Shown here in pieces: positions 3,023 to 46,986 of a stretch of DNA of 64,000 nt. The notes beneath the pieces were generated by a model. That model was given only the letters and a program-made list of their open reading frames with translations. It was not told the origin of the DNA and did not search any database. The stretch is from positions 83,514,482 through 83,578,481 of the forward strand of contig OZ038379.1 of the NCBI GenBank assembly GCA_964036045.1. Reading direction: 5' to 3'. Each line of letters starts with the position of its first letter. The first letter of the stretch is position 1. The translations under genes were made by a program, and so were the position numbers. Source of the DNA: Eutreptiella sp. 'Long Island Sound 2002'. Taxonomy: Eukaryota > Euglenozoa > Euglenophyceae > Eutreptiales > Eutreptiaceae.

Positions 3023-3832
3023 TCAATTCGGCCAAGCACGAATACATGTGACCACCAACCTGTCTGGTGGGGCCCTCGTACGGCTTGGGCGCTGCAAATC
3101 CGCGGCCGAACTCGAAGCTTGGTCCTCATTTGGCTCCTGGGCTGGCCTGACCGCAGGAGGGGGGATCGACGGATCAGCCCTGGAATGTGGCTGCTGAGGG
3201 CCGTAGGAGGCTGGATCTCGATTCACCACAGGTCTTTTTCTGTCGCTCTCCACCTGTCTGTCTGGTTTCGACAGACAGTCTGTCAGGAGTACGCCAATTT
3301 CGGGGTGCTTCTTGAGGAAGTCGATGAACCCCTTGGTGTACCCATGGACAAAAGAATGGGCTGGTTCCCAGTTGTTGTGACTGGAATCAAAGCCCCTCCA
3401 CTCACATAGAAATTCCCATTCGCCCTTTCCGTCACGTCTTGCTTCTAAACTCCTCTTGAGTTCGTACTTCCCCCCTTCGATGACCCGATCGGACAAAAGT
3501 TTCGAAGTCCAAAAAAGGGGTTTAACCCGATCCTTGGGGGAGGGGATCTCTCTCTTGAGGCGATCGCCCGAAACATCAATTTCCCTGCTGACATCCACAC
3601 GAATCCTCCACCTGTTCTCACCTAGACGCGCTGTAACAGCGAATGGCCCCTCCCACAAGGGAAGAAGCTTATCATCTCCGTCCAGGGTGGTTTCGGATTT
3701 TCGAACCCAAACTCGATCATCGACTTCAAAATTGTGGGGGTTTTTTCGGCCTTGATTCTGGACCCAAAGCCAGTCAGCTTGATGCTTATCGATTATCTGC
3801 TCGTTGGATTTCGTCCAAAAACAACGAAGCAT
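3023..3832 (-). pseudogene. Element A pol C-terminus: integrase tail and chromodomain
   Basis: The minus-strand frame ends at TGA 3023. It begins with the integrase C-terminal beta-barrel region (DDRVWVRKSE, then LWEGPFAV), followed by a chromodomain (YELKRSLEARR, FLCEWRGFDSSHNNWEP, then a helix ending FLKKHPEIG). The tail is Pro/Ser/Arg-rich. In chromoviruses this domain binds modified histones and steers integration. The frame differs from the integrase core (3786-5345) and overlaps it by about 45 bases, so a frameshift near 3786-3832 separates the integrase core from its tail. Either the copy is broken here or the shift is programmed; a simple indel is more likely. Confidence 0.85.
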
Positions 3833-5345
3833 CTTTACAAGGGCGAGGATTATTCAACGGCATGTTACACCAACACTTCTTTCGTCCAAAGACAATTTCA
3901 TTTGGAGAAAGGCCATGATACAAAGGCGTGTTGTGGTAACGGCGAAGCATGGCGAAAAGAATCTCAAGCCAATGGAAGTCCTTCTCACTGGCGAGTTCCT
4001 TACGGAGCATATTTATAAGTGAGCGGCTGGCTCTTTCGCCTGGCAGCGCTCGATGTGAGTGGATTTCACATCTGAGGTGATGGATTCCAAGGCGGGTACA
4101 TAATTCTCTCCACCATTCGGAGGTGTACTCCTTACCTGAGTCCGTAATCACCTCGGATGGGACGTCCCAACCTCCCATCCAGGTCTGCGCGCACCATTTG
4201 GCGGCAGCCTTGCCAGTCATCGACTCGATGTTACAAGGCAACACCTGAATGTAGCCGGAATGACGGCACTGAATAAGGAGCACTCCATTGACCTTTTTGT
4301 TGGTCCAATGGCACTCTTCGTCGTCGAGTTCACCAAGATAGAAAAAGTCACTGGTGACTCTGTTAAAGAGGCGCTCCGGAATAGGATGTGGCCTCAGATG
4401 GCCGTGCTTCTTCGCGCTGGGGGGCGTCGAGACAGCAGTATATAGCCTTGAGCCGAACAACCTATGTTTAATCATCGACCATAATCTACGGCCATGTGCG
4501 TGGGGGGACTCCCATTTGTGCCACCAGTTTAACACTCGGGGGGCCAGGGCGTCTGGTACGCACAAATTACCCTCAATCCACAGCTTCCCCCCATCCAACA
4601 AATATTCTGCATAAATTCCATCCTTGTGAGCATCTTTGGATTTGAGATTTTCAAAGACCTCTTTAAACATGGAATCATGCAGATAATCGTTCGTCCAGTC
4701 ACGGATGATAAGGGAATCTTTCGGCAGGGGTGGAGTTTTGGCCGGATCTCGACGCTTAATGCCCTGAATCAACCGAAATCCACTTACAGGTCGGGTATAC
4801 TCGAACCGTTTCACACTCCCTGAGGAGGGATCGGTGACTTTTTCCACGACTTTCAGTGATTTGGTGATGAATTCATGAGCATGCGCCGGATCTGAGAAGG
4901 CCGTGATGTCATGACACGGTAATGCATGCTGTTTAACAGCGCATTGCATGCATTCACGTCGGATGAGCTTTTTTTCTTCTTGATCCCACTCGATCACGAC
5001 GTGGCGGTCCTGCTCCGTACCATGGATGTTGGTACTTTGCAGCCCCTCTGAAGCGGGGTAAGCCCATCGGCTCAGAGCATCCGCTACCGTGTTGTGTTTT
5101 CCAGGCAAATACGACACATGGAGGTCAAACAGACTGAGAAATTCATGCCATCTGGCCCGTCGACCAGCTGGGCTCGCGACAGTATCAATGTGTTCGGTGG
5201 CCCAATACTCCAGAGATCGATGATCCGTCAGGACCTCGACTCGATTGGTGCCAACCCACGATTGGTACCTTTTCAGCGCACAGATTATGGCATATGTTTC
5301 TTGCTCACGCGGCGACCATTGCATCTGGCGTGGAGCTAGCTTCCG
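3786..5345 (-). pseudogene. Element A pol: RNase H C-part and integrase
   Basis: The frame is open from an in-frame TAG at 5346 to TAA at 3786. Counting from the methionine at 5324, it has RNase H motifs REQETYAI (residues 6-13), VLTDHRSLEYW (31-41) and KHNTVADALSRW (76-87), then integrase. The catalytic triad is visible as D326 (VTSDFF), D395 (VITDSGKEY) and E430 (LPGERASRS). The N-terminal zinc-binding half keeps histidines near 269-277, but the expected Cys-x2-Cys is absent (TAVSTPPSAKK), which is unusual for Gypsy integrase. Same frame as the upstream pol segments. Confidence 0.88.
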
Positions 5346-23650: not shown

Positions 23651-25533
23651 CTTTCCTGGCCGTGTTGCTTGCGTGCGTGTCCCCGCCTCCCCTGGTTGTG
23701 GTTCGCCGCCAGTGGCGGCGGGTGCCCCCCTACCCCTCCTGGCTGAGGGTCCTCTGGTGTTGGTGGCGGGTGGGCCTTCGCCACTCCTGGCTGAGGTCCG
23801 CCAGTTCGCGGGGCGTGGTCCCTCGCTTCCGGCAGTGGGTTCTGGGTAGGCGGGTTTTCCCTCACCACTCCTGGCTGAGAGCCCCGGATGCAGTCCCCCG
23901 TAATTCCTGGCTGGGAGCCCGCTGGTGTTGGTTGTGGGTGGCCCCTCGCCACTCCTGGCTGAGGGTGCTGGGGGCGGTTCCCCGCCACTCCTGGCTGGGG
24001 TCCTCTGGTGTTGGTGGTGGGTGGCCCCTCGCCACTCCTGGCTGCGGGTCCCTGGCGCGGTTCCCCGCCACTCCTGGCTGGGGTCCGGTGGTTCCGGTGG
24101 TGGCCGTTTCCGCGGGGTTCAGTGGGGGGTTTCCCCTGTTGCGTGTGTTTGTCGCGCGGCGCGTGCTGGTGTGTGTGCTGTGTGTTTGTGGCGGTGGTGT
24201 GGGTGTGGGTGTGTCTTCAGTGTGTGTTGGCACGTGTGTGGCGGCGTGTGGCGGTTTGTTTCCCTGGCTGGGGCTTGCCGCTGGTGTTTGTGTGGGTGGG
24301 GGTGTGGCTGGTGTGTGGTCGGTCCCTCGCCACTCCTGGCGGAGGTTCCTGCGTGTGTTTCCCCGCCACTCCTGGCTTGGTTGCGCCGCCGGTGGTGGTG
24401 GGTGCACCTCGCCACTCCTGGCTGAGGGCCCGGGGTGCGGCCCCTTGCCACTGCTGGCTGGGGTCCGCCGGCGGCGGTGGTGCGTGGTTGTTTGCCCCTC
24501 TGGGGTGTGGTCCTGTTTGCGGTTCCCCGCCACTCCTGGCTGGGGTCCGCAGGCCGCGGCGGTGGCCGTCTGTGTGGGGTGGGGTGGGGATTTCTCGTGG
24601 TGTGTGTGTTTGTGGCGCGGTGCGTGCGCGCGTGGTGTCTGTGCCGGTGTGTGTGTCGTGTGTTCGTGGTGACCTGGGTGTGGGTCTGTCTTCCGTGTGT
24701 GTTGGTGTGTGTTTGTGTGTGTGTGGGTGTGTGGCCGGGGCCACCTGGGGCTTGCCGCTGGTGTGGTGTGGGTGTGGTTGGTGTGTGCCGTGGTTGGTCC
24801 CTCACCACTCCTGGCGGAGGTTCCTGAGTGCGAGTTCCTGCCACTCCTGGCTGGGTTTCGCTGTCGGTCGTGGTGGGTGGTCCTCGCCACTCCTGGCTGA
24901 GGGCCCCGGGTGCGGTTCCCCGCCAGTCCTGGCTGAGGTCCGCTGGCGGCGGTGGTGGCCGTCTGTGTGGGGTGGGGTGGGGATTTCTCGTGGTGTGTGT
25001 GTTTGTGGCGCGGTGCGTGCACGTGTGGTGTCTGTGCTGGTGTGTGTGTAGTGTGTTCGTGGTGGCGTGGATGTGGGTGAGTCTTCCGTGTGTGTTGGTG
25101 TGTGTGTGTGTGTGTGGGTGTGTAGCTGGGGCCGGCTGGGCCTTGCCGCTGGTGTGGGTGTGGGTGTGGTTGCTGTGTGCCGTGGTTGGTGCCTCGCCAC
25201 TCCTGGCGGAGGTTCCTGAGTGCGAGTCTCCGCCACTCCTGGCTGGGTTTCGCTGTCGGTGGTGGTGGGTGGTCCTCGCCACTCCTGGCTGAGGGCCCCG
25301 GATGCGGTTCCCCGCCATTTCTGGCTGAGGTCCGCTGGCGGCGGTGGTGGCGGTCTGTGTGGGGTGGGGTGGGGGTTTCTCGTGGTGTGTGTGTTTGTGG
25401 CGCGGTGCGTGCACGTGTGGTGTCTGTGCTGGTGTGTGTGTCCTGTGTTCGTGGTGGCGTGGGTGTGGGTGTGTCTTCCGTGTGTGTTGTCGTGTGTGTG
25501 TGTGTGTGTGTGGGTGTGTAGCTGGGGCCGGCT
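23651..25533. repeat. Hairpin-repeat field with modules of about 390-400 bp
   Basis: More than twenty copies of a short motif, with core GCCACTCCTGGC, occur here in the plus orientation, often as pairs about 35 bases apart. The arms pair: CCTCGCCA with TGGCNGAGG, or CCCCGCCA with TGGCNGGGG, leaving one bulged base and a CTCC loop. Larger modules repeat with a spacing of 391 bases (the same GTGTGGGGTGGGG phrase at about 24569, 24960 and 25351). (TG)n runs lie within modules. Element C interrupts the third module at 25533; the array resumes at 38714. Confidence 0.85.
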
Positions 25534-29609: not shown

Positions 29610-32600
29610 TCAGTGGTCAATGAGCTCCTCCACTCGGTTCTCGGGCACCAGCAGCTTGTCCTTGAGGAACAACTTGTCCCCATCCTTGGTCAAGCCCTCA
29701 GGCCATTCGTCGTCCGACGGGGCGCTCACGGCATTCCAGTACTTGCTCCAGTGATCGGATGCCGCGTAGTCATTCGACCAGTGCTCTGTGAGCACCGACC
29801 TGACTAGCTCTACAGGGGCGACCATCCATTGCTCGAGGGTTTCCTCTCGAATAGCTTGGACGCGGGCACCCCGGAACTTGGCCCGGTCCGTACGGTTTGC
29901 CATCACCACAAAGCACTTGACCCCCTCCTGCTCCATGGCCTTCTCCATCTCGATGATGCGCTTGGCCTCCTCGGTCTCCTCGGCGTCCCCATGGCTGGAT
30001 ATGTCCATCCAGGCCTTGTCCGCGGGGTAGGCCCAGCAACTGAGGCAATCTGCCGCAGTGTTGTCCTTCCCCGGGACGTACACGACGCTGAGGTCGAACT
30101 TGGGGAACGTCTCGTGCCATCGGGCCCTCCTAGCCGCTGGTCCTGAGGGGGTGTCGACATGCTCCTTGTGCCAGCTCTGTAGGGACTGGTGGTCCGTGCA
30201 AACCACCACCGGCTGCAGTCCGATGTGGCCAGACCACTTCCTGAGCGCACATACAATGGCGTATGTCTCCTTCTCCCTCGCGGTCCATGTTCGGCGTTGG
30301 CCCTCGGCCAGGATCCTGCTCCAAAACGCCACGGGTACGTGTGACCCGTCGTCCCGGATCTGCTCGAGGACTGCCCCCACAGCATAGTCCGAGGCGTCCG
30401 TCCGTAGCACGAATCCCTTGTCCGGGTCCACCAAGAATAGCCCCAGCTGCCCCAGGAGTCGCTCCTTCAGGCGGCTGAACGCATCTTCGGCCTCCGGGGT
30501 CCAGGCAAGCTTCTTCTTGCTCCCCTTCCGGCCATCGAACTTCCCGACCTGCAGCATCTTGTGCAACGGCCCCGAGAGTTCTGCATACATCTGGACATAG
30601 CCCAAATAGTAATTGCAGAATCCCATGAAGGACCGGAGTTCGCTGATGGTCTGGGGCTTCTCCCAGTGGTGTAGGGACGCCAGCTTCCCAGGCATGGGAC
30701 GGCGTTGCGCGTGACCAACCACGTGACCCGCGAACTCCACTTCCTTCACGAAGAGTGAGGCTTTGGTGGGCTTGCACACCATGTTGTGCTTGTCCAACTC
30801 GCTGAGCACTCGACGCAGATCCTTCTCATGCGCGTCGATGAGCTCGTCCTCAGTCATGTTCTCCGTGCCGGACCCGATGATGATGTCATCCACGAAGGGG
30901 TCGGCACAGTCCCGGACAGGACCGAGCAGGTCCTCCATCATGCGCTGGAAAGCGGCGTTGCCATTCTTGGCGCCCATAGGCACCACTTTCCACTGCATGG
31001 GCCCCAGCGGCGTCGACATCGCTGTGCAGGGCCTGGAGTCCAGGTGTAGCGGCATCTGGTGATAACCGTGTTTCAGGTCCAACACCGTGAAAATCCGCTT
31101 TTTCTGTTGCTTTTGGAGGATGGAGTCGATCAGGGGGAGCGAGTACGAGTCGTGCTCGGTCTGCTCGTTCAAACCTCTGGAATCAACCACCAACCTCCAC
31201 TCGCCCTTCTCCTTCTTGGGCACGATGAAGGCTGGGCTGGCCCACTCACTGTCGGAGGGTTCGATCCATCCCCGCTCAATGAACTCGGCCAACAGCTTCT
31301 TCATGGCCTCGGCCCGATCGCCCTGAAGTTGGTACTCCCGATGACGATAGATCTTGGGGTTTGGCTTCAGCTTGATCCTCGCTGTGCCAAACCTCCCACA
31401 ATCTGGAGGGTTCTTGTTGGCGACGCCACTGAATAGCCGCGGATAGGCACTGATCAGCCTCTCCTTCAGCTCGGCGACCTTCGGGTTCTCCTGAGCCTCT
31501 TCAGCCGCTTGCTTCGGTATCGATACCACCGATCGCACTGCGGTATAGGCCTCTTCTGGGTCCGATTCCGACTTCTCCTCGTCCGATATGTCGTCCTCAT
31601 CGTCGTGGGGAGCTCTTCCCACCGATAATTTTCGGAAATTTGCTGCCTCTGGCTGGTGACTGTCGCTATCGGCACCCATTCTTGGAAAATCCCATGTTGG
31701 TGCGTCGGACCCAACCCGACCATCGCATTGGTGCGCGATGTGATCCATGACCCTTGCCACGAACTCGTCCTTCTCGTACTTGCCGGTGACCAACATCTTG
31801 TCATCCCACCAATGCGGAGATGTGACCATGGCCCGCCTCTTCTTGGCTGCCACACGGTTGTGCATCCCCATTCGCATGTAGTTGACGACGTCGTCGATCT
31901 CGGAGTGGGACAGGATGTCAATGCCATCAATTGGCTGATCCGTCCCCTCCTTGGGCTCAAACATGACCTTCATGGGCACCGCCTCCACCCTACGGATGAA
32001 TGCTTCATCACCCGTGGGCTGGGCTTGCGCCCCATCCACCAGGAAAGTTTTGGTACCCCACGCTTGACCCGGGGAGGGCATTGATACACGCTTGGCGTCG
32101 ATGAACAACCCCTCCTCTGGCCCGAAAGACATCTCGTTCAGGGTGATGGAGTCCAGCGTCGACTTGAGATCCTCCAGCGGACATGGGGTGGATCCTATGC
32201 CGGTTATGACCAGGATCCCCTTCGCCCTATCCGCGACGATCTTCTCCACCGTACGTCTGGTGTTATCCAGGGAGCCATGCCAGTACATGGGCCCCCACTC
32301 CTTCAAACCCCAATGCCTGTGCCAGGCTGAGTCTCCTCGATGGCAATGCCTCCTACACTTCCGCAAAAGTGGGGCATCCCGGGAAGCGAAGACGTCCGTC
32401 TCGGGCGCTTCGGCTCCCAGCGTCTGGATCATCCTGGCATACACCTGCGGCGCCATTCCATACTCCGTGAGCTGAACTCCGCGGTCTCCTCTGAACTTGG
32501 CACCCACAGCTTGCACCGCTTGGACGATCCGATCATCTTCCTCAGCATTCCATCCGGAAGATCCGCATGCATAGTCCGTGGACAGCCATGTGAGGCATTC

Positions 32601-32948
32601 ATCATCCTCACGGACCAGCGTTGCACGATGCAGAAGGGCTCCAATGGCATTTGCCACCATGAAGTCATACCCCATGATCATATCCCAATCTGTAATGTCG
32701 GCCACATAGAAGTTCCCAGATAGAGTGCTTCTCTTCGCCTGATCAGGGCGGTTCAAGCGCTCATGCTCCCAGAATTCCATACTGATGGTGGCCTCGTGGG
32801 TGCCGCCACCCATAATCTCTCCGTTGGCGACCTTCAGGCGGACCGGTCTCCAGCTGGGCTGCAGGAGTTCCTCCTTGAACAACCCTCTCCGGACCAGGCT
32901 CACCTGGGCACCCGTATCCACTAACACATCCACCACCTTCTCCTCTCG
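29610..32948 (-). pseudogene. Element C pol: protease, methyltransferase-like domain, RT, RNase H
   Basis: The frame is open from TGA 32949 to TGA 29610. Counting from 32936, the protease active site is VLVDTGAQVSLV (DTG at 7-9). The methyltransferase-like domain (about 153-300) has DVFASRDAPLL (181-191), MYWHGSLDN (217-225; HGSL where element A has NPPF) and GILVITGIG. After an acidic linker, RT shows ERGWIEPSDSEWASP, LVVDSRGLN, TVLDLKHGYHQMPL, PMGAKNGNAAFQRMM and FVDD. RNase H shows RTDASDYAVG, REKETYAIV, CTDHQSL and DNTAADCLS. RT and RNase H catalytic residues look intact. Confidence 0.92.
32268..32279 (-). other. Degenerate methyltransferase motif (HGSL) in element C
   Basis: At the position aligned with NPPF of element A, the codons read His-Gly-Ser-Leu. 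The flanking sequence (DVFASRD upstream, a long helix and ILVI downstream) keeps the domain outline. Confidence 0.6.
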
Positions 32949-38713: not shown

Positions 38714-39950
38714 GGCTGCGGCTTGCCGCTGGTGTGGGTGTGCGTGTGGTTTGTGTGTGCCGTGGTTGGTCTCTCGCCGGTTCTGGCGGAGGTTCCTGAG
38801 TGCGAGTTCCCGCCACTCCTGGCTGGGTTTCGCTGTCGGTTGTGGTGGGTGGTCCTCGCCACTCCTGGCTGAGGGCCCCGGGTGCGGTTCCCCGCCAATC
38901 CTGGCTCGGGTCCGCTGGCGGCGGTGGTGTGTGGCCGCTTGCCACTCCTGGCTGCGGGTCTGGGTCGTGGTTCCGCGCCACTCCTGGCTGGGGGGGTCTG
39001 CTGGTGGCGGTGTTGGGTGGGCCCCTGCCACTCCTGGCTGAGGGTCTCGGGGGCGGGTCCCCGCCACTCCTGGCTGGGGTCCGCCGGCCGCGGCGGTGGG
39101 TGTTTCCGCGGGTGGGGGTTTCCCGTGTTGTGTGTGCTTGTGGCGCGGAGTGTGCGTGTGGTGCTTGTGGTGGTGCGTGTGGTGTGTGTTCCTGGTGTCT
39201 GTTTTGGTGGTGGTGTGGGTGTGGGCGTGCCTTTCACGTGCGTTTGTGTGTGTGTGTGTGCGTGTGTGGTATGTTGGCGGTGTGTGCTGTGGTGCGGTGT
39301 GGTGTGTTGGTGGGAGCGTGGCCGGTGTGTGCTGTGGTTGGTCCCTTGCCACTCGTGGCGGAGGTTCCTGTGTGCGACTCCCCGCCACTCCTGGCTGGGT
39401 TTCGCTGCCAGTGGTGGTGGGCGTTCCTCGCCGCTCCTGGCTGAGGGCCCCGGGAGCGGTTTCCGGCCACTCCTGGCTGGGGTCCGCCGGCGGTGGTGGT
39501 GTGCGGCTCCCCGCCACTCCTGGCTGGGGCCTGCTGGTTGCGGTGGGGTGCTTCGCGGGTGGGGCTGTCCCTTGTTGTGTGTGTTTGTGGTGGTGGTTGG
39601 CCCCTTGCCACTCCTGTCTGTGGGGCCAGGTTGCGGGGCCCCGCCACCCCTGGCTGGGGCCTGCAGCCGGGTGCCGTGGTTGGTCGCTCGCCACTCCTGG
39701 CCGAGGACCGTGGGCGTGGTTTCCCTGCCACTCCTGGCTGGGGTCCACTGGTTGTGGTGGTGGGGGCCCTGGGTGCCCTTCTCCTTGGTCTTGGTGTGTG
39801 TGTGTGTTTGCTGCGTGGCGCTTCGTGTTGGTGTGGGTGGCGCGGGGGGGGTCGTGCGCGGTGTGGCTGGCGTCTGTGTGTGTGTGTGTGCGTGCGGTGT
39901 GTGGTTGGTGGGGTGTGTCATACCTTGGTTGGTTGTCGTCGTCGGTCGGC
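38714..39950. repeat. Hairpin-repeat field, continuation after element C
   Basis: The same motif field as 23651-25533, with about seventeen further hairpin copies (for example near 38808, 38856, 39058, 39427, 39507, 39722). It begins with the second half of the module that element C split. Long open frames on both strands reflect composition, not genes. Confidence 0.85.
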
Positions 39951-40921: not shown

Positions 40922-40961
40922 CCCATGAGACCCACTGGGGGGGGTATTTTCTTCGAACGAA
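40922..40961 (+). repeat. Transposon T left terminal inverted repeat
   Basis: It matches the reverse complement of 45638-45677 except for one 3-base indel in each copy (CCA missing, three extra G). It is followed to about 41060 by dense TTCGAACGAAG motifs. Confidence 0.85.
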
Positions 40962-41060
40962 CTTCAGTCTTCGAACGAAGATTCGAATCTTCGAACGAAG
41001 ATTCGAATTCGAAGACTGTTTTTGCTTTAATCGCAATTCGATTAAATCTAATCGAATCCA
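40949..41060 (+). repeat. Left subterminal TTCGAACGAAG cluster
   Basis: Several direct and inverted copies of TTCGAACGAAG and TTCGAATC lie within about 110 bases, a usual arrangement for transposase-binding sites near the end of a DNA transposon. Confidence 0.7.
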
Positions 41061-41252
41061 AGCTGCTGGGGAGAATTGCCGCAAAAGCGCAGCAACAGCA
41101 GCGCGCGCACCAGATTGACAGGCGATTGCCGCAGATTTGTGCCAGAAAAACGCAGATTTGCGCCAGAGAGACGTAGATTTGTGCCAGGAGAAGGGGTTTT
41201 TTTGTTTTTTCAACTGATTTGTTGTATATTCAAGGCCGTCACTGTTTGACCA

Positions 41253-41954
41253 ATGGTGCAACTTGGAAATACGCTCAAAAACGCGGTAGGCACGACGAAT
41301 GCTTATAGCCAGGACGTTGAGGACGCGCTTGTGCAATTTTTCACCTTCTCCGGCCTGGGACGCCAGCTTTTACACTCAATCTACACACGAGTCAACCCAG
41401 GCACTGACAAGCAGAGATTGAATCAACTTCTACGGTGGCACAGCGATGCTCAATGCTCGCCTGAAGAAGCAGTCGCTTTGCTTCTCGATTTGGGAATCCC
41501 TAGACGCCGCCTTCGGGTTCTATCGCGCTTTATTTCCAAGCGTGCGGACGTATGGTACAAACAGACTGGCCTAAGGTTTGGGAAACCAATGCCAGGCCGC
41601 CGGAGAGTCAACTTGGCTTGGAAAAGGATGAAGGAGCCCCTGCACCTTGTTGGCCACATCGACAAGAAAACTGGCATCCGAAATGTCTCCTGGCCGTTTG
41701 ATCACTGGATCAACTACGTTTTCACACAGCCTTGCCTCTATGAAACTCTACAGCCCAGCAAAGATGGGTTGGTTTTCATTGTGAGTGGTGATGGTTATCC
41801 TGTAGCGGGTGTAAGCTGGACTCAGCTTACCATTCGCATCCGAAATCATGAGCATCTAGCCCGCAATGCAGCACACATTTGGGTTTTAGAGCTGGCATAC
41901 TGTGGTGACTCCAATCTGAAGGATTTGCGCCGGGTCTGGAAAAAGAATCTGAGG
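41253..41954 (+). CDS. Transposon T transposase, exon 1
   Basis: ATG at 41253; 234 codons to a GT donor at 41955. After a helical N-terminus with Arg-rich segments, residues 174-182 read VFIVSGDGY, with D180 proposed as the first catalytic aspartate. It ends KDLRRVWKKNLR. Joined to exon 2 in phase 0, the predicted protein has 563 residues. The SGDG followed by a GGD and a later E-x-x-N matches a family of large DDE-type transposases (established pattern; exact family name not asserted). The only transposase in the window. Confidence 0.72.
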
Positions 41955-42072
41955 GTGTGTTATTTCTTCGAATATTGCCTTCGTTCGAACCTTCGACCGT
42001 TCGAACGAAGCTTTTCCTTCGAACGAACGTGTTTTTCGAACAAAATTTTGATTGCGCTTTGCACGCTACTAG
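41955..42072 (+). other. Transposase intron 1 with TTCG palindrome cluster
   Basis: 118 bases from GTGTGT to CTACTAG. Splicing keeps the frame open (phase 0). Its body is a dense run of TTCGTTCGAA-type motifs like those at the transposon ends. Confidence 0.7.
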
Positions 42073-43062
42073 GTCCTGCAGCGGATCATAACTACGCGAT
42101 CCGTCGTCGTGAAGGGCGCACGCTGTGCGGCAAGTGTTATGCTGGGTGGGGATTTACCGGTTTTGAAGAAGTTTTTGGGACTTACTGAGCATTGGTATAT
42201 ACCGTCAGTTCACAACTTGGGCCTTTGGAACCCTCTCAAGAGGCGGTACCTGGGCTGTCACCGGCGCAGAACGCGCACCGGTGATGCGTCCCGACTTGGC
42301 AAGACCCCTATCTGCAAGGGAGCTCGTGGCTGCGCTTCAAAACCTTTGCTTCAAGTGCCACGACACCATGCCATTATTTGTGTTCTTCATATGCTTATGC
42401 GAATTGGTGCTTTGCTTGGGGAATACTTGGAAAGGCTATGCTTGTCCGCCAGCAGGGAAGCACGCAACGCTATCAATAACATGCTGAAGATTGCTCTGTG
42501 TGGTTGGCAGCTAGGTGGAACTTGTAGACCTGATGGACAAGAAACGAAGCGTTTGTTTTTTATATGGGATGGTATTGCTCATGTTTTGGGTTTGGCCGAC
42601 GAGCACTTGGGTAACCAGGCTGTCATGCGGTTGCAGGACGTGATGCAACGGCTCTATCGCACATATCAACGCATCGACATTGACCTCCCAGCGGACTGTC
42701 GGCAGGCGGCCTGGGAATTTCACGCACACTGTTTGCCTCATACCCGTTCTCATTATCTGATAATCTTGGAGTTCGATGTGCCCAGAATCCTAGAGGCGAT
42801 ATGGCCTTACGGGCTTGGGATGTACTGCCAGGACTTGGCTGAAACCACGAATGCCAAGCTAAAGGATTTCTACTTGCGCTTCACAAACAGAGGGGGCAGC
42901 ACCACAGATGACTACCAGCTCTCTGCTCTACTACAAACCATGGAGCATGCCTTCTTGTACACGCACTCCCATATTGTAGCTCACGGTACAACGCGCCCGA
43001 TCTCCTGCCCGAACGCTGCATTGTTCGAATCCTTAATAGACGATGCCGCTCAATGGTGCTGA
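42073..43062 (+). CDS. Transposon T transposase, exon 2
   Basis: Continues to TGA at 43060-43062. MLGGDLPVLKKFLGL supplies the second proposed catalytic aspartate (D261 of the spliced protein). VLHMLMRIG and a long helical insert follow; then HYLIILEFDVPRILEAIWPYG leads to DLAETTNAKLKDFY, where E491 is the likely catalytic glutamate. Between about 42240 and 42390 the alternative frame (RPLSARELVAALQNL) fits the family pattern better, hinting at two compensating indels. So the copy may be slightly damaged or have an unrecognised intron. The stop overlaps the proposed start of gene 2 by ten bases. Confidence 0.68.
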   Translation, partial: VLQRIITTRSVVVKGARCAASVMLGGDLPVLKKFLGLTEHWYIPSVHNLGLWNPLKRRYLGCHRRRTRTGDASRLGKTPICKGARGCASKPLLQVPRHHAIICVLHMLMRIGALLGEYLERLCLSASREARNAINNMLKIALCGWQLGGTCRPDGQETKRLFFIWDGIAHVLGLADEHLGNQAVMRLQDVMQRLYRTYQRIDIDLPADCRQAAWEFHAHCLPHTRSHYLIILEFDVPRILEAIWPYGLGMYCQDLAETTNAKLKDFYLRFTNRGGSTTDDYQLSALLQTMEHAFLYTHSHIVAHGTTRPISCPNAALFESLIDDAAQWC

Positions 43063-43100
43063 CAAAGGAAGACAAAGCCGATGTGGCAAGACTGGTGGCG
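43053..43100 (+). CDS. Transposon T gene 2, exon 1
   Basis: ATG at 43053; 16 codons (starting MVLTKEDKADVARL) up to a strong donor, GTATGT, at 43101, phase 0. It overlaps the end of the transposase frame by ten bases. Chosen because it joins in frame to the long open frame that follows the intron; transcript evidence is absent. Confidence 0.5.
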
Positions 43101-43268
43101 GTATGTGTTATTCTCCAAGCCCTGCAGGCATGCGTTGTAGTCCTTCGAATTTAGTCTTCGTTCGAATCTTCGAATCCTCGAACGAACTCTCGTTCGAAGA
43201 TTTTTCTTCGTTCGAATATTCGAATCTTCGATCGAAGATATTTTTGGAACCTTTCGCGCTGTGCTCAG
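43101..43268 (+). other. Gene 2 intron 1 with TTCG palindrome cluster
   Basis: GTATGT to GCTCAG, 168 bases; an alternative acceptor lies 12 bases later at 43280. The cluster of TTCGTTCGAA motifs spans about 43141-43250. Confidence 0.6.
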
Positions 43269-44105
43269 GAGTTGCTTCAGGCGCACCCAACTTCTGCCCC
43301 AGCGTCACGATCAGCGCCAGGAACACCTTCCCAGAGTAGTACACAACTGGCTCAGCACCCAGCGCCGCAGCGTTCAGCGGATTTGGAGCCGTCACAATCC
43401 CGTTCTCGCCGTTTGGATGACCCGCTAGATTTTGGATCCCAGGATTCAGAAGAATATGATCCGGATTACGTGGTGGTGAACGAAGTGTTCGATGTCAGCG
43501 CCGAGTTCGACACTTGCCGCCAGGTAATCGTTGAATCCGGAGTCACCCGCCCCTACCTTGACCTCATTCTAGGGAAATCCGTACCCAATCCGCATACGCC
43601 CATTTTCGGGGACCCAAAGTACGCTTGGCTTGCGCCACTGTCAACCTATGGGCGCTGTTTCGGAACGTGTGTATCAGCCGATTGCAAAGATGTGGCTGTG
43701 GAGAGGGACTTGCCTTGTGCACTGGTCGCCCGCGCCTTCCCCTTTGCAGTCCCGAACAAAAAAGGCACCCCAACCCCGATAGTGCGTATGCTTGCGCTTG
43801 TTTGGAGCGCCTACGGCGCAGTGGAGAGCTGGCGTGAAGACCGTACCGTGATGCTCAGATTCCCCTCCCCAGAGCCCCCAGGCCGGGGCAAATGTACATC
43901 AACGGGCCGCTTGAAAGGCGTCAAGGTCACCGCTCAGGCGCGGCGTGGTGGTCAGGCAGCCCAGACGGACGAAGGAGCACAGCAAGCCGGGGGAGTACAA
44001 CAATTGCAAAGCACAACACCGGCGAAGTGGCAGACGGTGCTCCAGGCAGCAGTCGCAGCAGGAGTGCAGCATGGCTACATGGGAGGGGACATTCCTGAAT
44101 GGGAG
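43269..44105 (+). CDS. Transposon T gene 2, exon 2
   Basis: 279 codons in phase 0 with both introns. Ser/Pro/Gln-rich at first, then an acidic stretch (FGSQDSEEYDPDYVVVNEVF), then a compact domain with PYLDLILGKSVPNPHTPIF, CVSADCKDVAVERDLPC and MLALVWSAYGAVESW, containing several conserved-looking cysteines. The end is Gln/Ala-rich. No family recognised. By position it is probably an accessory protein of the transposon, comparable in role (not sequence) to the second proteins of other multi-gene DNA transposons. Confidence 0.6.
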
Positions 44106-44268
44106 GTACCGCATTTACCTTGTAGCTGAGCGCCTTTGACCATGCATGCGTCCTGTACGTTATTCTTCGAAAAACATTCTTCGTTCGGAGAAAAAAACGT
44201 TCGTTCGAACAGTCGAATCTTCGAACGAAGATTGTATTCGAAGTCTTTTACCGCTCCACTGCCCACAG
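44106..44268 (+). other. Gene 2 intron 2 with TTCG palindrome cluster
   Basis: GTACCG to CCCACAG, 163 bases. Splicing here joins two open frames in phase 0, the best support for a real intron. The cluster is at about 44163-44245. Confidence 0.72.
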
Positions 44269-44427
44269 GTTGCAGCAACGCAAACCAGCGCCGTTGGCGT
44301 CAGGTGGAAGCTTCAGCTACCAAGTTGTGGAATTGAGACGACCGTGACTGCGGGCAGCCTGCTCAACGACCTCCTAACGAAGCCTGCGAGAGCACTGACG
44401 GTCCTCGGAGCACTCGGGAAACCATGA
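44269..44427 (+). CDS. Transposon T gene 2, exon 3
   Basis: 52 codons and TGA (starts VAATQTSAVGVRWKL, ends ALTVLGALGKP). The predicted gene 2 protein totals about 347 residues. No domain recognised. Confidence 0.6.
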   Translation, partial: VAATQTSAVGVRWKLQLPSCGIETTVTAGSLLNDLLTKPARALTVLGALGKP

Positions 44428-44452
44428 AGAAGGTCGCAGAAAGGTGAAGTCG

Positions 44453-45259
44453 ATGCCAACGTGGGTCAACCTGAGCCAGGGTGGTTCCATGTTGCATTCC
44501 CCTGAGGCAACCGAAAAAAAAGCGTCGACGACCAGAGCTGGTGTGCGGGGCAAAGATCCACAACCCGTTGTGTCCGGACGACGGGCAAAGAACCTTGCCG
44601 AGATTCTCTCGTCCTACAAGAAGACAAAGAAGCCGAAGAAGAGACCACGAGCGAAGCCAGCGGCTGGGGAACCTCCGAAGAAAAAGGCAAGGCTGCTGCC
44701 GGGTGAGAGTTCGGAGAGTGAGGAGTTCGAAGAGAGTGAAGAAGATGAGGAGGAGGAGCCACCTTCCGGAGATGAGGAGGAGGAGCCGCCTGCCCGAGAT
44801 GATGACGATGAAGACGAAACCCAGGAGACACAGATTCCAGACCGAGGGGCACTGCCGTGGGCATGGCTTCCCCTCCAACAAGAGGACCAGTGGGGCGCGT
44901 GGAGAGGAGTGCCGATTTCGAAGTGGCGCCCCTGGCGAACGGAGATACCCAGAGACATCCTGCAGCAGAAGACCAAACTGGGCCGTGCCGGTAAAATCTA
45001 TTTGGTCCCTGCAGACTACAACTCTGCCATGTGGCATTCTGTGGGGGAGTATTGTGCTGCGGCCCGAAGCTACGCAACGGAGGAGGAGTGCAAAAACGCG
45101 CCGGCAGTGGCGTCGGCAACCGGTGGCGTGCCAGCTCCAAGTGCCAGGAAGAAGAAAGTGAAGGCAAAGAGGCCAAAGAAGAAGAAGAAGACGCCAAGAA
45201 AGAGTGGTGGAAAGCAAGAAGAAGAAGATGCCGGAGAGGGAGACAAAGAGGATACTTAA
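44453..45259 (+). CDS. Transposon T gene 3: acidic/basic nuclear-type protein
   Basis: ATG 44453 to TAA 45257-45259, 268 residues. It contains strong nuclear-localisation-type stretches (KKTKKPKKRPRAKP, PPKKKARL), a long acidic region (SEEFEESEEDEEEEPP and repeats), a short Trp-rich segment (LPWAWLPLQQEDQWGAWRG, then ISKWRPWR) and a Lys-rich C-terminus. No enzyme motif seen. Composition suggests a DNA- or chromatin-associated protein acting in the nucleus, perhaps binding the TTCG palindromes, but that is inference. Its start lies 25 bases after the gene 2 stop. Confidence 0.65.
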   Translation: MPTWVNLSQGGSMLHSPEATEKKASTTRAGVRGKDPQPVVSGRRAKNLAEILSSYKKTKKPKKRPRAKPAAGEPPKKKARLLPGESSESEEFEESEEDEEEEPPSGDEEEEPPARDDDDEDETQETQIPDRGALPWAWLPLQQEDQWGAWRGVPISKWRPWRTEIPRDILQQKTKLGRAGKIYLVPADYNSAMWHSVGEYCAAARSYATEEECKNAPAVASATGGVPAPSARKKKVKAKRPKKKKKTPRKSGGKQEEEDAGEGDKEDT

Positions 45260-45367
45260 AAGAAAGACGAGGTTGCAGTACTAGTGTCAGGCAGTGAGTC
45301 GTGAGCAAGGACTCAGAGAGCTACATTGGACAGGGACATTGGTGGTACTGCGGTTCTGTTGTTGCCT

Positions 45368-45477
45368 GTATGTGCATTTGTAAACGCCGCGTCTTTTTCT
45401 TCGAAAAATATCTTCGTTCGAACATTCGAAGGTTCGTTCGAAGAAAAGTCCACCACATTTCGAAAACACATTTTCAG
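45368..45477 (+). other. Candidate intron downstream of gene 3 with TTCG cluster
   Basis: Donor GTATGT at 45368 and acceptor TTTTCAG at 45477, containing the fourth internal TTCGTTCGAA cluster (about 45395-45455). It would be in the 3' untranslated region or an unannotated exon pair. Confidence 0.4.
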
Positions 45478-45584
45478 GGCATTTAGGTGATTGCAGGCTG
45501 AATCTAAGGAACCAAACCCTCAAAAATACCTGTGTTGAGCATTTTATCGCAATGTTTGCAGCAAAATGGCCACAACAAAGGCGT

Positions 45585-45660
45585 TCGAACAGTTCAAAAC
45601 TTTTCTTCGTTCGAAGAAATAATCTTCGTTCGAAGGTTTCGTTCGAAGAAAATACCCCCA
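45585..45660 (+). repeat. Right subterminal TTCGTTCGAA cluster
   Basis: Five or so TTCGTTCGAA-type motifs in about 75 bases, mirroring the left end and running into the right terminal inverted repeat. Confidence 0.7.
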
Positions 45661-45677
45661 GTGGTGGGTCTCATGGG
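45638..45677 (-). repeat. Transposon T right terminal inverted repeat
   Basis: Ends TGGGTCTCATGGG; reverse-complement partner of 40922-40961. Confidence 0.85.
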
Positions 45678-46180: not shown

Positions 46181-46986
46181 TATCCTTCTCCTCTTCCTGC
46201 AGAAATTCTTGCCAACCCTCAGTTTTTGCCGGAATGGCCCCACATACTGGGCAAAATGTTGACATATGCATTGTAAAAGTTGCAGAATCGCAGAAACCCT
46301 CGGAGCGACGTGATAGTCTTCCTCAGTGGCCACTTCTCTGATGGCATCAGCTAGCCCCGCCGTGGTTCTCGCACGCCATGCCGTAACCGATGACCACAGA
46401 ACTCCACGGTCTCAACAAACAGAATCGTCTTGTCCAGGTCGTCGACTAGCTTAAACCCCTCCAATCTGGTAAAGATCCTACCGATATCCGCATCATGTTG
46501 CTGTATGAATTCTTCCCGTGTCATGCCTTCCTTCAGCTCTGTACCAATTATCAGATCGTGGATGTACGTGTCACAGATATCCCGCATGTCCCCAAGAAAC
46601 CACTCCATCATGTGCTGCCAGACATCTGGGGTGTTCTTCAGGACTTGTGGCATGCAATTGGGTCGTAGGACCCGAAGGGGCGTATATGTTGCTGCGAGAT
46701 CTGAGCTGTCCTTGTGCAATGGGATCTGGCTGAAAGCATCTTTCAAATCAATAATACTCCACAATTGCAGCCTCCCTTGACGCTCAAGGATGTCACTGAT
46801 AAGGGGCATGGGGTACGTGTCAACAAGAGGTTCCTCGGTAACCCCACGGTAATCACCGACACCTCTCCACTCTCCAGGGACTTTCTTTTGCACTGGAAAG
46901 GCCGTTGATGGCCACTCCGCTGCCCAACACAGTTCAAACTTGTTCTGTGTAACCCATTTCCTGGCTAATTCCGTCATCGCTTGATG
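46180..46986 (-). pseudogene. Element D reverse transcriptase, degenerate
   Basis: In frame after TGA 46987, RT motifs appear: AEWPSTAFPVQKK, WSIIDLKDAFSQIPLHKDS and HMMEWFLGDM, with the active-site box written TYIHDLIIG instead of YxDD, so the first aspartate of the pair is histidine. After a frameshift near 46340 the thumb continues (SLRGFLRFCNFYNAYV) to about 46190, then similarity ends. Inactive. Confidence 0.85.

Follow-up and report, generated by a model that had tools for sequence, protein, structure and literature searches.

Within a DNA transposon of Eutreptiella sp. 'Long Island Sound 2002', three of the four internal motif arrays have changed no more at the lineage level than amino-acid sites have, and two of these three lie in well-supported introns. 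The element, referred to here as T, lies in a window of 64,000 nucleotides, the whole stretch of DNA that was analysed. The new result is the constraint on its internal clusters 2-4. The introns may host docking arrays for a protein of the element, most likely as a self-limiting feedback, a reading to which we give a probability of roughly 0.4.

T (40922-45677) is a real and recently mobile DNA transposon with 40-bp terminal inverted repeats (TIRs). Four copies differ by only 0-2 substitutions, and target duplications of 2 bp in 15 of 18 copies (3 bp in one of the 18) set the element edge at CCCATGAG. The duplication of the window copy is TT/TT. An element with such nearly identical copies may still be able to move. 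The window copy is itself somewhat decayed, with 33 TTCGAA against 38 in copy L043; the two differ at five motif positions, and T carries the broken form at all five. The ends are organized as follows:

40922..40961, + strand: 5' terminal inverted repeat, 40 bp, 90% identical to the 3' one, beginning CCCATGAGACCCAC; edges set by the 2-bp duplications (15/18 copies)
40950..41015, + strand: 5' subterminal motif array, 6 TTCGAA
45581..45650, + strand: 3' subterminal motif array, 4 TTCGAA
45638..45677, - strand: 3' terminal inverted repeat, pairing with the 5' end

The 64-kb window has 22 matches to the motif TTCGTTCGAA with one mismatch or none, all of them within 40952-45647. The expectation for the window is 2.79, and none of 100 shuffles reached 22, which rejects chance as the source of the arrays. 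The first-pass annotation had described the motif as a palindrome; this is true of its core, TTCGAA, while TTCGTTCGAA as a whole is not fully palindromic. T contains 33 TTCGAA and the remaining window 20. The first-pass annotation had also proposed that T's ends and four internal clusters share the dense motif, and in fact 30 of the 33 lie there: the ends have 10 (each within about 100 bp) and the predicted introns 1 to 4 have 5, 6, 4, and 5, or 20 together. The other 3 are exonic. Half-sites number 8.0-15.2 per 100 bp in the ends and introns, and 0-1.3 in the rest of T. TTCGTTCGAA is absent from the 131,543 non-T bases sampled (some counted twice), and a general genomic satellite is thereby rejected within the sampled sequence. 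A search of viral contigs with P0018 found no relative, and the motif matches there (L001, L002, L053) were set aside, with only 3, 4, and 4 TTCGAA in total.

Among 18 young copies compared, the clusters are never missing from undeleted stretches. Copies lacking the internal clusters had been named in advance as evidence against a role for them; such copies do exist, but all of those found are truncated or have internal deletions. In copies about 4-13% diverged the clusters persist, decayed to varying degrees, and intron length is little changed.

The interior of T contains two genes, arranged as follows:

41253..41954, + strand: exon 1 of gene A, the putative transposase gene; the one frame tested has dN/dS 0.10
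41955..42072, + strand: intron 1 with motif cluster 1, from frame and selection; no lineage-level constraint detected
42073..43062, + strand: gene A exon 2, with the stop codon at 43060-43062; spliced-frame dN/dS 0.17, alternative frames 0.93 and 2.21
43053..43100, + strand: gene B exon 1, 16 codons long, with an ATG overlapping the last bases of gene A
43101..43268, + strand: intron 2, carrying motif cluster 2; subfamily majorities identical over all 168 nt
43269..44105, + strand: gene B exon 2; dN/dS 0.20, others 1.59 and 3.04
44106..44268, + strand: intron 3 with motif cluster 3, from frame and selection
44269..45303, + strand: gene B exon 3; dN/dS 0.33, others 0.74 and 2.15; altered in the window copy
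45368..45477, + strand: motif cluster 4 between GT and AG, 3' of the gene B stop; a 3'-UTR intron or a plain internal array

Splicing of introns 1-3 yields a gene A product of 563 aa and a gene B product of 639 aa, the latter open in 7 of 12 copies. Copies with an intact frame for both genes include L042, L043, L046, L047, L050, and L052. Gene B exon 1 holds the sole ATG of its open stretch, and reaches the downstream frame only with intron 2 removed. The dN/dS values of 0.10-0.33 in the spliced frames, against 0.74-3.04 in the six wrong frames, indicate purifying selection; a comparison of T with L043 alone has little power (p=0.0095 for gene A exon 2, no significance for gene B). Four GT-AG introns had been predicted. 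All of their limits hold as drawn, and introns 1-3 are well supported, at the DNA level, by reading frame and selection. The fourth lies 3' of the gene B stop (45303), and is therefore a 3'-UTR intron, if it is an intron at all.

Pfam-A gave no family for gene A, even with E allowed up to 10, and for gene B only matches below the cut-off. Since neither protein matches Pfam above cut-off, the transposase type of T may be undescribed. The exon 3 product of gene B has an acidic middle and a lysine-rich end. A single-sequence structure prediction (P0004) gave a pLDDT of 33 and no usable fold. Protein searches returned 17, 25, and 11 matches, each of 82-99% identity over the matched part (the 17 and 11 from the best 7989 candidates), which we take to be copies from this host or one closely related to it.

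Selection on the clusters was assessed by counting shared and private changes in 23 copies, a shared change requiring data from two copies. The copies were chosen by similarity to gene B (L076-L089) or to intron 2 (L074, L075). Flanks were trimmed, and badly aligned 40-base windows were masked in 10 of the 23 sequences (39-137 bases each), which may conceal decayed motif stretches. Clusters 2-4 have a shared:private ratio of 27:267 against 119:396 at synonymous sites (p=4e-7, Fisher tests taking changes as independent). They differ likewise from gene A synonymous sites (p=0.0036), from other non-coding sites (p=0.0003) and from gene B synonymous sites beyond the zone used for picking copies (p=7e-5). 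The introns as a whole give 41:326 against the same 119:396 (p=5e-6). Elsewhere in T, the ratio is 160:1066 for non-synonymous and 32:114 for other non-coding changes. Taken singly, cluster 2 in intron 2 stands at 10:112 against the synonymous 119:396 (p=0.00014), cluster 3 in intron 3 at 12:89 (p=0.011) and cluster 4 at 5:66 against other non-coding 32:114 (p=0.0066). Cluster 1 has no lineage-level constraint by this measure (14:59 against gene A synonymous 32:138, p=1), nor do the ends of T, where binding would be most expected, depart significantly under thin sampling (6:33, p=0.32). By these counts, clusters 2-4 are under purifying selection indistinguishable from that on amino-acid changes, unlike the synonymous and other non-coding sites of T, which change freely.

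Subfamily majorities were also compared, omitting L075 because it is near the young copies. The introns differ at 11 of 543 comparable positions, synonymous sites at 84 of 811, other non-coding sites at 22 of 346 and gene B exons at 112 of 1826; TTCGAA cores in the ends differ at 2 of 60. Within the introns, cores differ at 0 of 147 positions and non-core sequence at 11 of 396 (one-sided p=0.03), and the shared:private counts of core and non-core show no difference (11:96 against 30:230, p=0.86). The constraint is thus not clearly centred on the motif.

The preferred explanation, that of docking arrays, would operate as follows. T would be a two-gene, cut-and-paste DNA transposon of unassigned transposase type, in which the TTCGAA-type palindromes are putative sites for a DNA-binding protein encoded by T. 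Gene B is the preferred candidate for this binder, gene A being the putative transposase. The terminal arrays would serve excision, as subterminal repeats do in other elements. Arrays of the same kind would have accumulated and been retained inside T where coding sequence imposes no constraint, in the introns and ahead of the 3' end. When occupied, the internal arrays would most likely slow RNA polymerase or splicing inside T, lowering the dose of T's own proteins as a negative feedback. The motif is identical and its density similar in ends and clusters, which supports this docking reading, and the earlier suggestion that introns double as internal binding sites is supported indirectly by the persistence of the clusters across copies and by the selection on clusters 2-4. 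Against docking speak the lack of detected constraint on cluster 1 and at the ends, and the similar shared:private counts of core and non-core intron positions. A precedent is given by Spm/En, whose TNPA binds subterminal repeats and, on defective elements, blocks RNA polymerase, producing truncated transcripts, as described in PMC2613891. A more far-reaching version holds that a transposon lineage with a new type of transposase has made its own introns into operator arrays. Introns bearing the terminal binding motif would be selected as strictly as T's proteins, and the element would sense its protein level and throttle itself at no coding cost. This version is possible, though somewhat doubtful.

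A function at the RNA level is a rival that we consider fairly unlikely. The arrays would fold the introns into long pre-mRNA hairpins that bring splice sites together, regulate splicing or feed small-RNA production, and the ends would share the motif by descent, or since hairpins are useful there too. Each of the clusters 1-4 folds more stably than its dinucleotide shuffles (z -3.7, -3.6, -4.3, and -2.9), and non-core intron positions are constrained as much as cores. Palindromic arrays fold by construction, however, and the 5' end array folds as well (z -3.8; 3' array, z -1.7). Most of the changes that could bear on covariation lie in dead copies. Cluster 4 is constrained and need not be an intron; as neither protein requires its splicing, its constraint favours an array over splicing. 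An architectural role, with the arrays binding the same protein about 1.0-1.2 kb apart and compacting the 4.8-kb T into a synaptic complex, has a small chance of being right. Spacing is near-even along most of T, with starts at about 40950, 41962, 43141, 44163, and 45395, and the 3' array at about 45584. Against this, copies L036 and L048 have clean 2-bp duplications yet are without clusters 1-3, so these clusters may be unnecessary in cis for movement; deletion after insertion would look alike.

Two explanations without benefit to T are, taken jointly, distinctly improbable: host proteins or chromatin marks may be drawn to the CpG-rich arrays, or replication slippage or gene conversion may have spread the motif among them. 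TTCGAA contains a CpG, and the CpG observed/expected ratio is 0.95 in T against 0.74 in the window, but the skew persists at non-CpG sites (introns 29:204 against synonymous 87:272, p=0.0004). Slippage or conversion should cut private and shared changes alike, rather than skew their ratio. The proposal that the introns arose introner fashion, as inserted terminal or miniature copies of T with the motif as a relic, fared worst and is very improbable indeed. It draws on the likeness of the intron arrays to the ends of T, and on some masked similarity of introns 1 and 3 to the 3' end (0 and 9 of 200 shuffles as good). These are the only exceptions: once the motif is masked, the remaining 14 of the 16 comparisons between introns and ends are not significant at the 5% level. 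None of six masked intron-to-intron comparisons is significant at 5% (smallest, 12 of 200). Relic arrays, moreover, are not expected to show constraint. Introners are intron-generating elements, many of them DNA transposons, scattered through host genes, whereas the 33 copies of intron 2 examined (among 40 scored matches, with 426 further unscored candidates) all lie inside one transposon family, T. A genome-wide search with cluster 4 gave 40 scored matches. First-look candidates across the genome number 976 for the 5' end, 466 for intron 2, and 417 for cluster 4. Unlike the expectation for introners, inspection found no TIR at the four intron edges, where small duplications overlapping the splice-site consensus cannot be judged. 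The resemblance of T's introns to introners lies in repeated, transposon-like sequence, as introners are characterized in PMC9860276.

Among known systems, T is like the CACTA element Spm/En of maize in having a transposase and a second protein, subterminal arrays of a short motif, a short target duplication, and introns. The motif arrays inside introns set T apart, none being known from Spm/En. The ends also differ, being CCCATGAGACCCAC in T and CACTA in Spm/En. CACTA (CMC) elements end in CACTA/CACTG and encode a transposase with a tnp2/Transposase_21-type domain in Pfam, and some lineages make 2-bp target duplications. T has subterminal repeat arrays, and its 2-bp duplication fits the 2 or 3 bp of CACTA. 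Its edge is CCCATGAG rather than CACTA/CACTG in 15 of 18 copies (CACTG lies 11 and 14 bp inward of the two ends), and gene A has no tnp2/Transposase_21-type match in Pfam-A at E up to 10. KDZ elements (Kyakuja/Dileera/Zisupton) have a Pfam transposase model and 8-bp duplications; T, with no Pfam match and 2 bp, is not placed among them. The duplication is 3 bp in the soybean CACTA element described in PMC2613891. The P element of Drosophila, as described in PMC7776569, has internal sites for its own protein near its ends, ORFs joined by splicing and target duplications of 8 bp, against the 2 bp of T. T shares with it the several ORFs joined by splicing. Retention of an intron yields a shorter protein in the P element (PMC7776569), whereas the intron-1 read-through frame of T, which stays open for 311 aa in 10 of 12 copies (L040, 279 aa; L049, 148 aa), has a dN/dS of 1.30 and no sign of selection; a retained-intron repressor of this style is therefore unsupported.

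The introns of transposons are usually regarded as neutral or as splicing switches. The motif-packed, selected introns of T suggest internal control sites within a transposon whose transposase type is possibly undescribed. As clusters 2-4 are constrained against freely moving synonymous sites, self-limitation by internal arrays becomes a testable idea.

The dense motif clusters that the first-pass annotation claimed for T, the DNA transposon at 40922-45677, are real. Allowing at most one mismatch, 22 sites of the TTCGTTCGAA type occur in the window, where 2.79 are expected, and all of them (22/22) lie inside T. The palindromic core TTCGAA is found 33 times in T, 30 of these within the two ends (subterminal arrays near 40950-41015 and 45581-45650) and the four predicted introns (41955-42072, 43101-43268, 44106-44268 and 45368-45477), whose arrays are referred to as clusters 1 to 4. 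Across 131,543 non-T bases from the window and the flanks of other copies, with some loci overlapping, TTCGTTCGAA is absent from both strands, and no 110-bp stretch holds four TTCGAA. Other features of the window include the following.

3789-5345, minus strand: retroelement open reading frame with RNase H and an integrase-core match just below the cut-off
23858-25533 and 38762-39102: two GC-rich tandem arrays of related sequence, with a unit of about 82 bp containing CCACTCCTGGCTG
29613-32948, minus strand: retroelement open reading frame with reverse transcriptase and RNase H
46354-46986, minus strand: retroelement open reading frame with reverse transcriptase

T belongs to a recently mobile family. 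In the 2.28 Gb assembly, its 5' end used as a query gave 976 first-look candidates, and the 40 that were scored all span the full query at 96-100%. Among 20 retrieved copies, 11 aligned over their whole length, seven carried one internal deletion each, L035 had no clean 3' end, and L037 was truncated, with a further piece of T behind it. The family edges read CCCATGAG..CTCATGGG. In 15 of 18 copies they are flanked by a 2-bp duplication, whose sequence varies between copies and is TT/TT at the window copy. Four copies (L039, L043, L046 and L047) are 0-2 substitutions apart, so the family moved very recently; the window copy is a slightly damaged member with an interrupted gene B. Two distant copies, L044 and L045, have one internal deletion in common (element about 3515-3906) and keep all four clusters; thus, a derivative with a damaged gene B has multiplied while retaining them. 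Three copies also lie within about 162 kb (G000:C4:163975971, 164042107 and 164138096), readable as local hopping or segmental duplication; the last, L067, the only one of the three that was read, no longer has the part carrying intron 1.

With introns 1-3 removed, the 12 full copies include 8 with a 563-aa gene A, the putative transposase gene, and 7 with a 639-aa gene B, the second gene; in 6 both are open. The ATG of gene B at 43053 overlaps the gene A stop (43053-43062 reads ATGGTGCTGA). Such a layout is unusual in a eukaryote, and gene B probably depends on a separate promoter or on alternative splicing. To obtain dN/dS, two groups were compared by their majority states, seven young copies (T, L033, L034, L040, L043, L049, L050) and seven more diverged ones (L074, L076-L081). 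It is 0.10 in exon 1 and 0.17 in exon 2 of gene A, and 0.20 in exon 2 and 0.33 in exon 3 of gene B, its two long exons; in the six shifted frames tested it ranges from 0.74 to 3.04. The selected frame shifts across introns 1 and 3, and their removal is therefore required. Removing intron 2 takes out a stop and supplies an ATG, and cluster 4 lies past the gene B stop. Read-through of intron 1 is open in most copies, yet its frame is not selected (dN/dS 1.30).

Constraint on the clusters was examined with 16 diverged copies (L074-L089), about 4-13% from L043. L074 and L075 are fuller retrievals of L057 and L064, more diverged copies among the intron-2 matches; searching with the gene B DNA of L057 yielded L076-L081, and searching with that of L081 yielded L082-L089. 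With uncertain positions dropped (16/118 in intron 1), the subfamily majority states differ at 11/543 intron positions (3/102, 0/168, 5/163 and 3/110 for introns 1 to 4), 5/194 in the ends, 33/1708 in 41253-41954 plus 42073-43100, 112/1826 in the long gene B exons, 22/346 in other non-coding sequence and 84/811 at synonymous sites. TTCGAA cores differ at 0/147 positions in introns. Synonymous rates vary along T, from 0.037 (gene A exon 1) to 0.189 (gene B exon 2), and intron 1, sitting in the slow part, is thus not slower than its surroundings. At 43722-43921, 28/199 positions differ between subfamilies; given this and the two synonymous rates, T lineages may be mosaics.

Because of this unevenness, changes were counted instead on a tree joining the 7 young copies with the 16 more diverged ones (23 in all), as private (one copy, mostly post-insertion decay) or shared (at least two copies, mostly from active-lineage time). 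Shared:private counts are 11:96 for intron core, 30:230 for intron non-core, 119:396 for synonymous, 160:1066 for non-synonymous and 32:114 for other non-coding positions. Taking changes as independent, introns differ from synonymous (p=5e-6; p=0.0004 at non-CpG sites alone) and other non-coding positions (p=0.003) and show no difference from non-synonymous ones (p=0.37), nor do other non-coding and synonymous positions differ (p=0.82). Intron 2 (10:112, p=0.00014), intron 3 (12:89, p=0.011) and cluster 4 (5:66, p=0.001) each fall below synonymous sites; intron 1 does not (14:59, p=0.55), leaving cluster 1 without detected constraint. Gene B exon 2 was the route to most copies. Clusters 2-4 (27:267) were therefore also set against synonymous sites, those of gene B lying outside the search zone (p=7e-5) and those of gene A (p=0.0036), and against other non-coding sequence (p=0.0003), and they differ from each. 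The choice of L074 and L075 through intron 2 means fewer private changes there, a bias against the constraint result. The tree counts show no difference between core and non-core intron positions (p=0.86), so that selection on the motif itself is not proved; masking of badly aligned stretches may have hidden decayed motif parts. In some diverged copies a cluster is down to one or two TTCGAA, as expected of dead copies, and the introns fold well as RNA, as palindromic arrays must. In the ends, sampling is too thin to reveal constraint (6:33; 2/60 core positions differ between majority states).

An origin of the introns like that of introners, dispersed intron-generating elements, had also been suggested; it is not supported. 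Once the motif is masked, 14 of 16 intron-end pairings fall short of the 5% level for similarity; introns 1 (0/200 shuffles) and 3 (9/200) are closer to the 3' end than expected. Dispersal of intron 2 is not borne out: 13 of 40 scored matches lie at the correct distance from a known 5' end, and 20 of the remaining 27 were retrieved, every one flanked on both sides by T sequence (rearranged in two). Among those examined, intron 2 is therefore not introner-dispersed.

CACTA elements, like T, have terminal inverted repeats, subterminal arrays, two genes and introns; however, the ends of T differ and gene A has no Pfam match, so that T cannot be filed there. Within the available parts of the open-licence literature searched, no transposon with its own terminal motif arrays in introns was found. 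In Spm/En, according to PMC2613891, TNPA binds subterminal repeats and, when bound on defective elements, blocks RNA polymerase. Two copies, L036 and L048, are flanked by clean duplications though clusters 1-3 are missing from them, which agrees with a regulatory over a structural need, although post-insertion deletion would look alike. The simplest account would have a single element-encoded protein binding every array, the ends for movement and the internal arrays for control. The latter would block RNA polymerase on the element's own genes, as TNPA does on defective Spm/En elements.
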